Assembly (NCBI GenBank): GCA_016191815.1
Contig: JACPVI010000060.1
Coordinates: 1 to 47,795, forward strand
Reading direction: 5' to 3'
Length of the DNA stretch: 47,795 bases
From: Myxococcales bacterium
Lineage (GTDB): Bacteria > Myxococcota > Myxococcia > Myxococcales > Myxococcaceae
Part shown: piece after piece, positions 41,224-47,795 of the stretch
How positions within the stretch are numbered: position 1 is the first letter of the stretch
How the letters are laid out: each line of letters opens with the position of its first letter
Position numbers and translations under genes: made by a program
The notes under the pieces: model-generated
What the model was told of the DNA's origin: nothing
Database searches by the model: none
The model's input: only the letters and a program-made list of their open reading frames with translations

Positions 41224-42975
41224 TCAGTCCGCGGTGCCGCCGCCGGTGTTTTCCGGGGCCGGCGGAGGAGCGGCATCCGTTTGAGGCGGCGGCGCGAGGG
41301 GAGCGGCATCCGTTTGAGGCGGCGGCGCGAGGGGAGCGGCCTCAGGGGCCTCCGCACTTGGAGGCGGAGCCGCTGCCTCGGGGGCTCCTGGTGCTCGAGC
41401 CAGCTCTGGCGCCCTCGGCCCGCGGCCACGCCGGCCTCTCCTGCGGCGGCGCCTCCGCCGGTGCTCTCCCAGCTCCGGCCCGGCCACGCCGGCCTCGCCC
41501 GGGGCAGAGGCCACCAGCTCCTCGCCCTCCTCCTCTCCCTCCTCGCCTTCTTCCTCTCCCTCCAGCTCCTCGGCGGACTCGGGCGTCCCACCGGGCGGCT
41601 CGCCCGGGGCCACCTCGCCGGCTCGGGCCGGCTCGGCGGGTTCCTCCTCTTCATGCCTCTCGCGCAGACGCTCCTCTCGGCGGCGGCGCGCCTCCTCGGC
41701 GTCGAGTCGGGCCTGCTCGAAGAAAGCCTCGTCCAGCTCGTACAGCTCCACCTTGTGCGCCAGCACTCCCACCTTGGCCTCGAGGAATTTCTCGGCCAAG
41801 GCCTCTCCGCACCAGAGAAACACCAGCGGGCCTCCCGACTGGGCCTCGCCCCGCCCATCGCCCCTCAGATCGCCCGGGCACAAAAGGAGCCCAAGCTGCG
41901 CCGAGTAGTGGCCCAGGTCGCGGCGAAGCTCCTGCACCGCCCGCCGGTCGACCGGGCCGCTGCCTCGGATGAACCTCACCGCACAGCGCACCTCGAGGCT
42001 GCCCTCCCGGCGGCGGGCAGTCAGCAAAGGCCCCTCCTTGGACCGCTTGGCGACCTTCAATTCCCTGAAGTGCAGCGCGTGCAGCATCCGCGCGGCGGCC
42101 TTCTCCAGGGTGCCCGCATCCAGCTCGGCAAGCGTCCGCCGCAGGACCCTCGCCATCGCCTTCCGCGCGTCCTTGGCGGCTGCCTTGGCCGCCTGCACCT
42201 GGCCCAGCTCCGCGGAGATGTCCACGCCCCGCTCGGCGGACCTGGGGAGCACGGGCCGGCCACCCTCCAGCGGGATGCCCAGCGCCGCGGCGAACGCCGC
42301 CTGCAGCTCCAAGGGAGGCGCCTCCGACGGCTGGCCGGCGCGCTCGAGCGAGACGCGGCCGGACTCCCGGTCGAAGAGGAACTGCGGCCTGCGGCTGGCG
42401 TCGATCCGACGCTGGTTGTCCTCTAGCAGCGCGGTGAGGATCTGCTCCGGAGTCAAGTCCTCCCCGGCCAGCTCGCGGGCCCTGGCCCGCTCGGCGATCT
42501 CCGAGGCTGGCAACCCTTCGCCGGCATCGGAGAGCACCTCGAAAACCACCTCGGGCAACGGAGGGAAGCGCCTCCGCCGGCCGCGCTCCTCTTCCTCGTC
42601 GCGCCGACGCTTCCGCTCGCCGCGCCCCACCGCCCTCACATTGTCCCCTCGCGGCTCGGGGTGCCGCTCGGGAGGCCGAAGCGGTGGGAGGGCCTCCTCC
42701 GGATGCGGCTCAGCCACGCCGGTCTGCTCCAGCGCCTGGGCGTCCTCGGGAAGCTGCCAGTCGGCGAGCGCGAAGGTGTCCTTGGCGGTGACGATCACCT
42801 TGCGGTCCCCGCGGCGGCGGGCCATCGCCGCCAGCCGGGAGAGCATCGTCTGCTCCGGCGTCTTGCCGACGTGGCTGAGCAGGTTCTGCTGGATCGACTT
42901 CTCGGTTATCTCGAATACGTGCAGCGGGCGCCCGGCACCTTCCAGCACCCGGAGCGCGGCCTCGTAGAACGTCAT
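41224..42975 (-). CDS. HARE-HTH protein with Mrr-like (apparently catalytically dead) domain and charged tail
   Basis: A 583-residue protein. Residues 1-75 are a HARE-HTH domain (TFYEAALRVLEGAGRPLHVFEITEKSI, GKTPEQTMLSRLAAMARR, DTFALADW). An Arg/Glu-rich linker and a second, diverged HARE-HTH-like unit follow (about 135-215, LPEVVFEVLSDAGEGLPASEIAERA). Residues about 280-395 have an Mrr-like endonuclease layout (LDAGTLEKAAARMLHALHF, then CAVRFIRGSGPVDRRAVQELRRDLG). The usual acidic residue and Q-x-K of the active site are replaced. The C-terminal 170 residues hold an acidic Glu run, an Arg run (RRRRRRRRGRRGRG) and Pro/Ala repeats. Probably a DNA- or RNA-binding protein linked to transcription, by analogy with HARE domains. 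ATG 42975. Confidence 0.78.
   Translation of the reverse strand: MTFYEAALRVLEGAGRPLHVFEITEKSIQQNLLSHVGKTPEQTMLSRLAAMARRRGDRKVIVTAKDTFALADWQLPEDAQALEQTGVAEPHPEEALPPLRPPERHPEPRGDNVRAVGRGERKRRRDEEEERGRRRRFPPLPEVVFEVLSDAGEGLPASEIAERARARELAGEDLTPEQILTALLEDNQRRIDASRRPQFLFDRESGRVSLERAGQPSEAPPLELQAAFAAALGIPLEGGRPVLPRSAERGVDISAELGQVQAAKAAAKDARKAMARVLRRTLAELDAGTLEKAAARMLHALHFRELKVAKRSKEGPLLTARRREGSLEVRCAVRFIRGSGPVDRRAVQELRRDLGHYSAQLGLLLCPGDLRGDGRGEAQSGGPLVFLWCGEALAEKFLEAKVGVLAHKVELYELDEAFFEQARLDAEEARRRREERLRERHEEEEPAEPARAGEVAPGEPPGGTPESAEELEGEEEGEEGEEEGEELVASAPGEAGVAGPELGEHRRRRRRRRGRRGRGPRAPELARAPGAPEAAAPPPSAEAPEAAPLAPPPQTDAAPLAPPPQTDAAPPPAPENTGGGTAD
41268..41333. repeat. 33-base tandem duplication in the tail of the HARE-HTH gene
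   Basis: Two exact head-to-tail 33-base copies (41268-41300 and 41301-41333) encode two copies of an 11-residue APLAPPPQTDA unit near the C-terminus. Perfect identity at DNA level indicates a recent, in-frame slippage event. Confidence 0.9.
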
Positions 42976-43076: not shown

Positions 43077-45245
43077 ATGATTCGTTTCCGCATCGGCCAG
43101 AGCTGGAAGCGGGAGCGTTCGGCGGTGCCGGTGGACGCCTTCGGGCTCTACTTGCACGGGATCGACTTGCTCGCAGGGGCGAGCGAAGAGCCGCTCTCCC
43201 GCGTGGTTCCCGACCTGGTGGACGCGGTGCATGCGCTCGCTTGCGAGGGGCGTGCCTGGTCGCAGGTTTCGCTCGAGGCGCACTTGGAGCTGTGCCTGTG
43301 GCGGCGCGGCGCGGAGGCGAGCCTGTCGGTGGTGAGCCTCGGGCGCCCACCGAAGCTGTTGCGCCCTCCGCTCTCCGTGGAGCTCGGGGAGCTTTCGGAG
43401 GCGGCGGCGCGGTGCGGGCGGGCGCTGGTGGCGGACCTGGCCGAGGCGTCTCCGGCGACGCTTCGCACCCAGAGGCACCGGGCGATGGTGCGGCGGCTCT
43501 CGGCGCTTGAGCGCGGGGGACTCGCCGAGCCCAGGCCGCGCCGTCTGGGTGGCGGCTTCGGGCACCGGCAGTTCCCGACCGAGCCGGGGAGCTTCGGGCT
43601 GGAGATCGAGGATCCCGAGGATTGGATCCTCGCCTTCGATCCGCGCTCGCCGGGCGGGTTGCCCTCTCTCTTGTTCGGCGGGGCCTTGACGCTGCGCGCC
43701 TCGCCGGGTGGCGACTGGCGGAGCGAGGGCCTGCCATTCCTGTCGGCTCTGGAGCTATCGCGTCAGGCGGCCGAGCTGCTCCACGCGATCGAATCGGAGG
43801 AGGAGCGGTTCTCCTTCCGGCCGGGTGGCGAAGGCGCGGAGGTGGAGGTGCGGATCCGGGAGGGCTCGGTACGGGTGGGCGCGGTGGAGGCGCCGCTCGA
43901 GCCCGAGCGGTTGGCGAGGGGGATGCTGGAGCTCGGCGAGGCAGTGGCGTTCGCGCTGGCGGCGCGGAACAAGTCGCAGCGGAGAAACCCGTACGTGGCG
44001 GAGTTGATCGAGCGCTGCCACGAGGGGCTCGCCTTGGTCCGCAAGGTGAGGCCGCCGGAGCAGGCCGGCGCGGCCACTGGCCCCAAGCGGCGCAAGGGGG
44101 CCACCCGTCCTCTTCGGGTGGGGGCGAGGCTGCGCAAGCTCCGCTTCGAACCGCTATGGGAGAAATCCGAGTTGGGAGGGGACACCACCGGGCGGCTCTT
44201 GTTGTCGCGCCAGGGGCCGATCTTCTCTTCCGGCGAGGTGGCCTGCGGCTTCGCTTTGAACGGAGAGCTTCGGTTCCGCAGGGTGGCGGCGCATGGAGTC
44301 GCCGCCTCGGAGGACGGGCGGGTGCTGGCGGCCACGCTCACGCGGATCCTCGCCTTCACCGCGGAAGATGCCGGGGCGCGGTGGCTCAAGGATCACGACG
44401 GGCTGCCCATAGGCCCCGAGCTTCACCGCAGGGACGGCCTGCTCATCGCGACGAGCAAGGACCGGGGGCTTTTGGCCTTCTGCGAGGTGACTGGCCGGGA
44501 GATCTGGCGCATCGATCCTCCGCGCGCCCAGCGGGCATACCTGTCGTTCCAGGGGCACCGGGCGCTGTTGGCGACGGACTCGGGGTCGCTTTACGGCTTG
44601 GAGGTGCGGGACGGCAGCGTGCGCTTCAGGATGCGGGCGGCGATGCCGTTTGCGGCGCCCACGGTGTCGTGGGGCAAGCGACTTCTGGCGCTGCTCTCGC
44701 GGGGGGAAAAGAGCGCGGTGTTTGCGGCTGACGCGCACTCTGGCGCCCTGGCGTGGACCAAGGAGTTGGCGCTGACGGCGCCCACGGCGCCGATCGCGGC
44801 GGGGAGCCGGGTTCTCTTGGCTGGACAGCAAGACGGCCAGTCGGTGCTGGTGTGCCTCTCCTCGAAGGGGCACCCGTTGTGGGAGCGGAGGCTGCACTTG
44901 GGGCCGGGACTCTCGCTGCTCGCGGTGGGGCGCTCGGCGCTGGCGCACGACCGGTCCGGGGCGGCGGCGCTGGTGACGAGCGATGGGCGGATCGACTGGC
45001 GAGTGGGGGCCGCGGGCGAGGAGATTCCGCGGTCCATTCCGGCGGTGTTGGCGCGGGGGGTCTTGGTGCTGCCCGGCGAGTCGGTGAGGGCGGTGGACCC
45101 CTCGGGCGGGAGGGTGCTGGCCGAGGTGCGGGCGGGGCCGGAGCTGTGCGACCTCAAGGTGGACGGACGGCTGAACCTCTTCCTCTTGGACGAGGACGGT
45201 GGGCTTGGGGCCTACCGGCTGTGCTCGCACCTGGCGGTGGTCTAG
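43077..45245 (+). CDS. PQQ-type beta-propeller repeat protein (cytoplasmic)
   Basis: A 722-residue protein without signal peptide. The first 340 residues form a region I do not recognise, mixed alpha/beta with many Arg and Glu (SLEAHLELCLWRRGAEASLSVVSLG, later SEEERFSFRPGGEGAEVEVRI). A basic linker follows (GPKRRKGATRP). Residues about 370-722 are PQQ-like propeller blades, each with strands and a turn: LLAFCEVTGREIWRI, LYGLEVRDGSVRFRM, VFAADAHSGALAWTKEL, LVCLSSKGHPLWERRL, ALVTSDGRIDWRV. Such propellers usually act as protein-interaction platforms; no quinone-enzyme residues are seen. ATG at 43077 with GAGG eleven bases upstream. Confidence 0.82.
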   Translation: MIRFRIGQSWKRERSAVPVDAFGLYLHGIDLLAGASEEPLSRVVPDLVDAVHALACEGRAWSQVSLEAHLELCLWRRGAEASLSVVSLGRPPKLLRPPLSVELGELSEAAARCGRALVADLAEASPATLRTQRHRAMVRRLSALERGGLAEPRPRRLGGGFGHRQFPTEPGSFGLEIEDPEDWILAFDPRSPGGLPSLLFGGALTLRASPGGDWRSEGLPFLSALELSRQAAELLHAIESEEERFSFRPGGEGAEVEVRIREGSVRVGAVEAPLEPERLARGMLELGEAVAFALAARNKSQRRNPYVAELIERCHEGLALVRKVRPPEQAGAATGPKRRKGATRPLRVGARLRKLRFEPLWEKSELGGDTTGRLLLSRQGPIFSSGEVACGFALNGELRFRRVAAHGVAASEDGRVLAATLTRILAFTAEDAGARWLKDHDGLPIGPELHRRDGLLIATSKDRGLLAFCEVTGREIWRIDPPRAQRAYLSFQGHRALLATDSGSLYGLEVRDGSVRFRMRAAMPFAAPTVSWGKRLLALLSRGEKSAVFAADAHSGALAWTKELALTAPTAPIAAGSRVLLAGQQDGQSVLVCLSSKGHPLWERRLHLGPGLSLLAVGRSALAHDRSGAAALVTSDGRIDWRVGAAGEEIPRSIPAVLARGVLVLPGESVRAVDPSGGRVLAEVRAGPELCDLKVDGRLNLFLLDEDGGLGAYRLCSHLAVV

Positions 45246-45276: not shown

Positions 45277-46092
45277 ATGCCACAGGGACAGGACGGAGGA
45301 AGCGGCGGCAAAAAGCCGCCAGCTCCGCTCCGCTACGAGCTGCCGAAGTGGACCGGCGGAAGCGCCGACGAGCTGTCCACCGGCCTCGGCAGCGCGCTTC
45401 GGGAGGGTGCGGGAAAGCTGCTCGGCTCCGCTGGACTCTCCTCTTCCAAGCTGTCCGCGCGCGCGGACGTGGAAGCGGCGGTCTGGGCCCTAAGCCCCGC
45501 CTTCGAGAAGCTGAGCCACCGCGACGCGCTCCGGTACGCCGTCCGGGCCTACCTCAACTTCCGGCAGGCCAACCCTGGCGCGCTGCTCAATCCCTACCTC
45601 TTCTTCGTGGACTTCGGGCTGAACAACCTGACCCGGCGCGGCTGTGCCTTCGACATGGGCGCGCTCAAGGTGGCGGACGGGCCGTTCACGGTGTCCCACG
45701 GCTGGGGCTCCGCTTCCGAGCGCGACGGAGTCCCCGCGCACTTCTCGAACGAGGAGGGCAGCGACGCCACTTCACTGGGCCTGTTCGCGACAGGCGCTCA
45801 GACCTTCCCCTTCCAGGGCAGCGCCGCCACGGGGAGCTACGAATCCATCGCGCTCGAGCTCCACGGGCTTTCGGGCGCGTTCAACGACAAGGCCCACGAG
45901 CGTCGCCTGGTGCTGCACGGCGCGCCCTACGTCACCGAGAGCGACGCCGGGCGGAGCGAGGGCAGCCCGGCGCTGGAGATGAAGCGGGCGAAGCGCCTCT
46001 TGCCGATGCTGGCCAACGGCGGAGTGGCCTTCTTCTTCTCGCCACACGACGCGGTGTGGATGTCGAAGGACCCCTGGGTCCACGCCAGCTAG
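45277..46092 (+). CDS. YkuD_2-type L,D-transpeptidase homologue with Ser in place of catalytic Cys
   Basis: A 271-residue protein. The family marks of murein L,D-transpeptidase catalytic (YkuD_2) proteins are present in order: NPYLFFVDFGLNNLTRRGCAFDM, TVSHGWGSA, HFSNEEGSDATSLGLF, ALELHGLSGAFNDKAHERRLVLHGAPYV with H214, and GRSEGSPALEMK. In active members the last motif is GRSxGCPA; here the Cys position is S230, while the His, Arg226 and surrounding residues remain. No signal peptide is evident; the first 60 residues are Gly/Lys/Ser-rich. The start is ATG 45277 with GCGAGG four bases upstream. Its stop overlaps the convergent Cys-rich gene by three bases. Confidence 0.8.
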   Translation: MPQGQDGGSGGKKPPAPLRYELPKWTGGSADELSTGLGSALREGAGKLLGSAGLSSSKLSARADVEAAVWALSPAFEKLSHRDALRYAVRAYLNFRQANPGALLNPYLFFVDFGLNNLTRRGCAFDMGALKVADGPFTVSHGWGSASERDGVPAHFSNEEGSDATSLGLFATGAQTFPFQGSAATGSYESIALELHGLSGAFNDKAHERRLVLHGAPYVTESDAGRSEGSPALEMKRAKRLLPMLANGGVAFFFSPHDAVWMSKDPWVHAS

Positions 46093-47795
46093 TTCACGAT
46101 CACCGCGCAGGTGCAGGCAGTGGCGCCGGAGCAGGCGAAGCCGGCGCCGTCCAGGCATTGGAGCCCCGAGCAGCACGGTGTGAAGGGCGAGCAGCTCTGC
46201 CCAGTGCCTGGGCAGGTGCCAGGTTGGCAGGTGCCGGTGGTGCTCCCGGAGGGGATGTTGCAGTACTGCCCGGTGCAGCAATCGGAGGTCGCGGTGCATA
46301 CCCCGCCCTGCGGCTGACACACCACCGGCGTCTGGCAGGTGGCGGGGCCCCCGTCGGTTGAGCCGCAGATCAGCGAGCAGCACTCCGGCGCAGATGAGCA
46401 CGGCTCGCCATTCACCTTGCACCCGGCGTCCACCGGGCCGCCGGCGTCGGCCGTCCCGCCCGCATCGGTGGACCCCGCATCCGGCGGACCGCCGAGCTGG
46501 CACGCGTCAGCGCCGCCGAGCGCCGGCAGGCAGCTCGTGCCTGGACAGCAGGCCTGGCCGCCGTCGGCCCCCATCACGCAACTGCCTCCGAGGGGAAGGC
46601 ACTTGGGCGGCGGGATGCAAATGAAGCCCGCGCCGCCGTCGGGATCCGGCAGGCACGGGCTCCTCCCGCAGCACTGGTCGCGGAACTGGCAGCTCCCACC
46701 CACCGCAATGCAGCACGGCTCGATTCCGGTGTACCCGGTGGGGCACTGTGGATCGCAAGTGTCGTTGGGGCACCCCCCGAAGCAGCGCGGGATGCCCGAG
46801 GAGTCCAGCTTGCAGACCGCCTTCTTCCCGTCGCAGCAGTTCTGCGAGGCGTTGATGTTCACCGAGCCGCCGTCCGGCAGCGAGAGGGTGGCGCCGCAGA
46901 TGTTCCCCACCCCGTTGCAGGAGGTCCCGTTGTCGCAGCGGCTGGTGACCGGATCACAGGTCACCGACTGGTTGGGGTTTGGCGCCCCGCCGCAGCACTG
47001 CGAAGTGGCCAGGCAGAAATTGCCGGTCAGCCGGCACCCGCTGGCGGGCAGACACACCGGAGCCCCGGCGCCCAAGTCGGTGCACGTCCTCGAGCAGCAG
47101 TTGGTCCCCCCCGACCCGCAGGGATTGCCGTCCTGCAGGCAGCCGCCCCCGCCGCCTCCCGTCACCACCAAGCAGTAGCCCGCCCCACCGTCGTTGACCG
47201 AGCAGGCGTTCCCGCAGCAGTCGGAGCTCTTGGTGCAGAGGTCGCCGTTGGCGCGGCAGGCGTAGGCGGGCGTGCAGTAGCCGCCCTTGCAATTTGTGGA
47301 GCAGCACTCCGAGCCTGCCAAGCACGCCTGGCCGAGTACCTTGCACCCGCCTTGTCCCGGGATCGAGGTGCACGTTCCGGTGCAGGTGAGGGTGCAACAC
47401 TCCCCATCGCTCGAGCAGATCGCGCCGACGTCCTGGCACCTTTGCGCGGAGCAGGAGCCGCTGGCGCAAAGCCCGGTGCAGCAGTCGGAGCTCGAGGCGC
47501 ACAGCTCGCCCGGAAGCTTGCAATACCAGGGCTGCACGCAGCGCCCCTGATCGCAGGTCGCCGAACAGCAGTCTCCGTTCGTGGAGCAAAGCGTGCCAGC
47601 CGCCCTGCAGCCGGCGTCGGCCCCGCTGCCGCCGCCTGCGCCACCCCCTGCGCCTCCACCACCGGCGCCGCCGCCCGCCCCTCCGCCGCCGCCTGCGCCA
47701 CCCCCGGCTCCGCCGCCCGCACCTCCCGCCCCGCCTCCCGCCCCGCCTCCCGCCCCGCCGTCGTCGCCGGCATTCCCGCCACCCGCCCCGCCACC
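46089..47795 (-). CDS. Cys-rich surface protein with Gly/Ala-rich N-terminal stretch, 5' end cut by window edge
   Basis: The frame stays open to the right edge (569 codons), so the start and any signal peptide lie outside the window. The first visible 70 residues are a Gly/Ala/Asp-rich low-complexity run (GGAGGGAGGGAGGAGGG type), a common spacer after lipoprotein signals in Myxococcota. It is followed by about 12 Cys-rich units such as LCTKSSDCCGNACS, GEPCSSAPECCSLICG and GGVCTATSDCCTGQYC, built on C-x5-C-x3-5-CC-x3-4-C. A DAG-rich linker (DAGSTDAGGTADAGGPVDAG) splits the array. The Cys pattern is unlike that of the giant gene's DGVCC repeats. Extracellular, disulfide-rich; function unknown. 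Confidence 0.82.
   Translation of the reverse strand, partial: GGGAGGGNAGDDGGAGGGAGGGAGGAGGGAGGGAGGGGGAGGGAGGGGAGGGAGGGSGADAGCRAAGTLCSTNGDCCSATCDQGRCVQPWYCKLPGELCASSSDCCTGLCASGSCSAQRCQDVGAICSSDGECCTLTCTGTCTSIPGQGGCKVLGQACLAGSECCSTNCKGGYCTPAYACRANGDLCTKSSDCCGNACSVNDGGAGYCLVVTGGGGGGCLQDGNPCGSGGTNCCSRTCTDLGAGAPVCLPASGCRLTGNFCLATSQCCGGAPNPNQSVTCDPVTSRCDNGTSCNGVGNICGATLSLPDGGSVNINASQNCCDGKKAVCKLDSSGIPRCFGGCPNDTCDPQCPTGYTGIEPCCIAVGGSCQFRDQCCGRSPCLPDPDGGAGFICIPPPKCLPLGGSCVMGADGGQACCPGTSCLPALGGADACQLGGPPDAGSTDAGGTADAGGPVDAGCKVNGEPCSSAPECCSLICGSTDGGPATCQTPVVCQPQGGVCTATSDCCTGQYCNIPSGSTTGTCQPGTCPGTGQSCSPFTPCCSGLQCLDGAGFACSGATACTCAVIVN

Follow-up and report, generated by a model that had tools for sequence, protein, structure and literature searches.

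A leaderless YkuD_2 protein of a Myxococcales bacterium with serine at the catalytic cysteine position

Introduction

The hallmark of YkuD enzymes is a catalytic cysteine, the thiolate of which attacks the donor stem. Replacement of this residue by serine has been described for the mycobacterial enzyme LdtMt2. The C354S mutant yielded no product from any of four natural substrates (1-4), and the authors state that serine cannot replace cysteine (accessible text of PMC11410929). PDB entry 8pxy contains, according to its title, LdtMt2 C354S with a natural substrate, and the crystallised mutant appears to bind without turnover. Cytoplasmic YkuD carboxypeptidases also exist: ElsL (LdtK) of Acinetobacter is a leaderless, cytoplasmic L,D-carboxypeptidase of recycling that is inactive as a C138S variant (PMC8649774, from excerpts). 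Furthermore, the YafK-type YkuD protein Lpg1514 weakly hydrolyses beta-lactams through Ser132, and Cys is not needed for this activity (PMC13400389, from excerpts). In the open-licence literature, we found no report of a natural YkuD protein that lacks the cysteine, and the available portions of PMC10864386, PMC10727944, PMC11527210 and PMC12729407 do not describe a natural Cys-to-Ser form.

Here, we analyse P0001, a 271-aa protein with serine at the catalytic position, encoded in a window that comprises one entire contig of 47,795 nucleotides. P0001 resembles LdtMt2 C354S in the Cys-to-Ser exchange and in the YkuD fold (VIA-align Z 10.6 to the P0001 model); however, the latter is a made mutant of a mycobacterial enzyme with 14 percent identity to P0001 in the structural alignment. 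With ElsL it shares a YkuD-type domain without a signal peptide, but ElsL needs Cys138 where P0001 has Ser230, and the ElsL orthologue set was restricted to proteins of 105-200 aa without signal peptides (PMC8649774, excerpts), whereas P0001 has 271 aa, a comparison made by description only. Lpg1514 is similar in its YkuD-superfamily fold and in having a serine with a functional role. In contrast to P0001, where serine replaces the cysteine itself, Ser132 lies elsewhere, the Cys is still present, the protein is of the YafK and not the YkuD_2 type, and its activity is beta-lactam hydrolysis and not transpeptidation. The short-lid YkuD_2 proteins of Gemmatimonadota, named 'murein L,D-transpeptidase catalytic domain family protein', share the Pfam match, a six-residue lid and the position in the tree with P0001, which differs from them by the exchanges of Cys230 to Ser and Tyr177 to Phe, the missing leader and the host phylum.

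Results

The contig belongs to a genome of 6.77 Mb in 89 contigs, with a completeness of 98.76 and a contamination of 2.42 percent. The following features of the window are relevant here:

41224-42975, divergent from the 722-aa gene: 583-aa protein with HARE-HTH and Mrr-type nuclease domains (Pfam)
43077-45245, plus strand: upstream core gene, 722 aa, BamB-like/PQQ repeats (Pfam, PF13360), ending 31 nt before the YkuD_2 gene
45277-46092, plus strand: YkuD_2 gene, leaderless, Cys-to-Ser at the catalytic position (ORF, Pfam)
45277-45462, plus strand: N-terminal 62 residues, hydrophilic, of low model confidence, replacing the signal or anchor segment of the relatives (hydropathy, pLDDT)
45520-46038, plus strand: YkuD_2 domain, residues 82-254 (Pfam; YkuD fold in the model)
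45643-45645, plus strand: Cys123 codon, sole Cys of P0001, aromatic in relatives (alignment; model strand 122-126)
45697-45699, plus strand: His141 codon, family VAHG motif, here VSHG (alignment of relatives)
45805-45807, plus strand: Phe177 codon, in place of a near-invariant Tyr (alignment of relatives)
45916-45918, plus strand: His214 codon, conserved HGAxY motif (alignment of relatives)
45964-45966, plus strand: AGC codon of Ser230, in the place of the catalytic Cys (alignment of relatives)
46089-47795, minus strand: Cys-rich protein in convergent orientation, cut off by the end of the contig; its stop codon and the YkuD_2 stop overlap; no Pfam match

P0001 was assigned to PF13645 (YkuD_2) with E 1.7e-22 and 80.1 bits (cut-off 27). 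NCBIfam and PADLOC searches returned no match, and a PDB sequence search gave chance matches only. The gene starts with ATG a few bases 3' of a GAGG, its frame is unbroken across all 271 codons, and its GC3 of 0.89 is similar to that of the neighbours. A promoter and terminator scan detected neither, including no sigma-70-type promoter. P0001 is the single PF13645 copy of its genome, in which the other L,D-transpeptidase candidates are two PF03734 matches, one of them above the cut-off. The convergent protein contains many CC-containing repeats and a Gly/Ala-rich N-terminus, and the stop codons of its gene and of the YkuD_2 gene overlap in a CTAG.

The first-pass annotation had reported the motif GRSxGCPA as GRSEGSPA, with serine at position 230, and had proposed a search for homologues sharing this serine. 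The motif was read correctly, and the AGC codon is one base from TGC. In a single alignment of 147 distinct relatives (56 subfamily members and 91 others), the Ser230 column holds Cys in every sequence. Cys was likewise present in 7/7 further copies, so that 154/154 other copies have the cysteine and none shares the serine. The 147 relatives in which the site is visible came from the phylum search (10), genome contigs (80), viral contigs (2) and Gemmatimonadota genomes (55). The searches were not biased towards Cys: the protein query carried Ser, and the two DNA patterns skipped the site. Before counting, we dropped L002 and L129 (P0001's own gene again), L003, L096, L097 and L098 (the same places as other loci), L184 (a fragment without the site), and L193 and L203-L205 (repeats of counted places). 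The counts of catalytic residues also exclude 13 weak Gemmatimonadota places outside the subfamily, the second copy of G1025, and the phage and plasmid matches.

It had also been claimed that H214 and the rest of the site remain. This holds for His214, which is His in 147/147 relatives, but not for the whole site: the residue at position 177 is Phe in P0001 and Tyr in 146/147 relatives, and Cys123 stands in a column that is Tyr or Trp in 56/56 subfamily members. Of the features expected for an L,D-transpeptidase, P0001 thus has the HG-motif His and lacks the SxGC Cys and the export leader. The column of His141 holds His in 53/56 subfamily members and 91/91 others; since three subfamily members deviate, His141 is not strictly required. 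The deviating residue is Gln in L014 (2019-2855) and Ala in two other subfamily members, and some members that carry the Cys can therefore do without this His. Between HGAxY and GRS, the lid comprises six residues in P0001 and in each of the 54 readable subfamily members (2/56 were unreadable), whereas it comprises 12 residues in 80/91 other YkuD_2 copies. Because all readable members share the short lid, it is ancestral in the subfamily and not a loss in P0001.

The changes are not confined to the nucleophile. P0001 departs at 7/61 near-invariant subfamily columns (Y109F, A140S, Y177F, G185T, G192A, C230S and V251A), whereas the other members showed at most three deviations in a leave-one-out analysis of 55 members, from which L183 was excluded. 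These deviations argue against a lone base-call error and favour a relaxed enzymatic constraint. In comparison with the closest copy, L099, 53/59 conserved columns are identical, versus 73/148 other columns, which points to selection over much of the branch and to an active site that has not been wholly abandoned.

The absence of a signal peptide, also asserted in the first-pass annotation, was confirmed. Within residues 1-75, the maximum 12-residue Kyte-Doolittle mean is 0.76, whereas 54/54 complete subfamily members have a hydrophobic N-terminal segment (maximum 12-residue mean of at least 1.6). This hydropathy test is a crude stand-in for signal-peptide prediction; the upstream stretches of the relatives were read from stop to stop, and L162 and L183 (2/56), which are cut at contig ends, were left out. 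No convincing leader was present in any of the three forward frames from the upstream gene to the YkuD_2 domain, and a signal peptide displaced by a frameshift was rejected for this reason. P0001 would accordingly be located in the cytoplasm, while export by another route is possible.

An AlphaFold2 model of P0001, based on an alignment of 52 sequences, reached a pLDDT of 81.7 and a pTM of 0.78; residues 1-60 are of low confidence (block-mean pLDDT 36-57). Foldseek and VIA-align returned L,D-transpeptidases for this model. The best VIA-align match was the L,D-transpeptidase 5bmq (Z 12.0, 130 aligned residues, 3.3 A), and B. subtilis YkuD (1y7m) scored Z 11.2. P0001 is therefore predicted to have the YkuD fold, by a model that drew on the family alignment and is hence not fully independent.

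The 722-aa upstream gene is present in 85/92 genomes of the family. Together with the divergent 583-aa gene it forms a pair that adjoins in the window and in 29/29 fetched relatives alike, and a YkuD_2 domain is absent from the locus in all 29. The YkuD_2 gene is therefore an insertion behind a core gene. In the closest relative at this locus, the next gene appears to lie on the minus strand and to encode a protein with an N-terminal hydrophobic segment. A nuclease-domain protein such as the 583-aa protein is an odd core gene. A chimeric contig was considered and rejected, as the two upstream genes are conserved neighbours in all fetched relatives and the GC content is even.

P0001 is the only PF13645 protein in 96 genomes of its own family. 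In the phylum, 10/195 genomes matched, its own included, and the others were distant (best other E 4e-19). In contrast, 58/395 genomes of a Gemmatimonadota sample matched at E 1e-10, with a best match of 61 percent identity and E 5e-79; this sample was centred on genome G195, the source of L014. The closest copy is L099 of Gemmatimonadota at this identity, and the closest relatives found carry leaders. FastTree placed P0001 beside L099 with a local support of 0.949. IQ-TREE, run without L183, placed both within Gemmatimonadota with UFBoot values of 97 for a clade of eight members and 100 for a clade of 11, and P0001 has the longest root-to-tip path of the subfamily (1.105; next 0.97). The YkuD_2 gene thus seems to have been acquired horizontally from a Gemmatimonadota-type source, as suggested by the sole copy in the family, its nesting in the trees and its position behind a core gene whose other bearers have no YkuD_2 there.

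A scan of genome contigs with the single protein gave no match. A second, alignment-based scan yielded 80 loci, but its patterns were poorly suited to the subfamily, of which it recovered only L014; the Gemmatimonadota copies were recovered through the whole-genome search instead. In a sample from the phylum of G199 (Acidobacteriota, source of L058), 0/396 genomes matched at E 1e-25, which is weak evidence of absence because the search had no positive control. Viral contigs contributed two distant copies (L094 and L095, both within the 147), phages one distant match, and plasmids 19 records, all below 60 percent identity.

Discussion

Taken together, we regard it as fairly probable that P0001 is a horizontally acquired, cytoplasmic and catalytically dead YkuD_2 domain that at most binds peptide without turnover. 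The gene would have started as one for a secreted L,D-transpeptidase of the Gemmatimonadota-type short-lid subfamily and would have been acquired by the myxobacterial host, with the signal peptide and the nucleophile being lost en route to, or within, this host. The product would remain cytoplasmic and adopt the YkuD fold. With Ser230 it would form no thioester acyl-enzyme and would not perform L,D-transpeptidation. As the pocket, His214 and the GRSxG loop have been preserved, binding of stem peptides of peptidoglycan or of a comparable ligand would be the most that it could still do. Because LdtMt2 C354S yields no product (PMC11410929, accessible text), transpeptidase activity of P0001 is not expected; the protein would either bind its ligand without turning it over or do nothing. 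The cytoplasmic location, the loss of catalysis and any remaining binding role are what we infer.

The earlier proposal of a binding-only pseudoenzyme acting in the cytoplasm is therefore upheld in part. The pseudoenzyme in the cytoplasm stands, because the nucleophile and the export signal are both lost, further near-invariant residues have changed, and the published Cys-to-Ser mutants are dead, as far as the excerpted articles report. Binding as its only function is possible, but decay after transfer fits equally well. A functionless remnant, in which the leader was lost after the transfer, the gene drifts towards a pseudogene, Ser230 belongs to a set of neutral losses and nothing is bound, is a less probable but serious alternative. 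It would account for the seven altered near-invariant columns, the longest branch of the subfamily, the occurrence in a single genome of a family with no other PF13645 copy, and the failure of the scan to find a sigma-70-type promoter. However, the intact 271-codon frame with a GC3 like that of the neighbours, the start codon with its GAGG 31 nt after the core gene, and the far better conservation of the conserved columns speak against mere drift. At the other end, a selected cytoplasmic pseudo-transpeptidase, a natural counterpart of the LdtMt2 C354S trap, seems rather unlikely. Such a protein would capture imported peptidoglycan stem peptides, or ligands resembling carbapenems, without turnover and serve cell-wall recycling as a sensor or sponge, or would carry out a slow hydrolysis through Ser230. 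The best reading is that P0001 is either a peptide binder or decaying, two states that are not separable in the one genome from which it is known.

Readings that retain catalysis were judged to be improbable to different degrees. A sequencing or assembly error, with TGC as the real codon of a conventional Cys enzyme that might, like ElsL, be cytoplasmic, would need a single base change, would agree with the cysteine in all 154 relatives, and has a precedent in the cytoplasmic YkuD carboxypeptidases (PMC8649774, excerpts). Nevertheless, we consider it improbable: Tyr177 and five more near-invariant columns have changed, a departure independent of base 45964 that makes a base-call error at the Ser230 codon less likely. 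The completeness and contamination values indicate a fair assembly but are silent on one base. The serine version of the reaction raised in the first-pass annotation was not supported, as LdtMt2 C354S gave no product with its four natural substrates (PMC11410929, accessible text) and no other relative has Ser; a serine transpeptidase is unlikely. Some serine activity is still conceivable, because Lpg1514 is an example of serine use within the superfamily, although of a different serine. Thus, Ser230 or another serine might act with His214 in slow hydrolysis, as an L,D-carboxypeptidase or in beta-lactam turnover. The intact His214 and GRSxG loop and the Cys-independent activity of Lpg1514 (PMC13400389, excerpts) would be in line with this, but the inactivity of both LdtMt2 C354S and ElsL C138S (PMC11410929 and PMC8649774, excerpts), the other position of the Lpg1514 serine, the absence of a second Ser variant among the relatives examined and the loss of Tyr177 make such an enzyme very improbable. 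Least credible of all is a relocated nucleophile, in which the gained Cys123 replaces Cys230. Cys123 is indeed the only cysteine and replaces an aromatic residue conserved throughout the subfamily, but it sits on model strand 122-126, a long way along the sequence from the strand that bears His214, and we found no precedent.

On the preferred reading of a dead, cytoplasmic YkuD_2 domain, P0001 would be a natural Cys-to-Ser form that also lacks its export tag: an enzyme of the envelope that, having passed from one phylum to another, has become a cytoplasmic protein devoid of catalysis. Binding of muropeptides, if demonstrated, would make it a naturally available binder that does not turn peptidoglycan fragments over, and would make it possible to test whether YkuD folds function as sensors. 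Should decay be all there is, the protein neatly illustrates how a transferred enzyme dies.

For the short-lid YkuD_2 subfamily of Gemmatimonadota itself, no published work was found in the open-licence literature. Its members (L014, L099-L128, L159-L183 and L196-L202) mostly carry the motif GRSEGCPA, and several genomes contain two copies.
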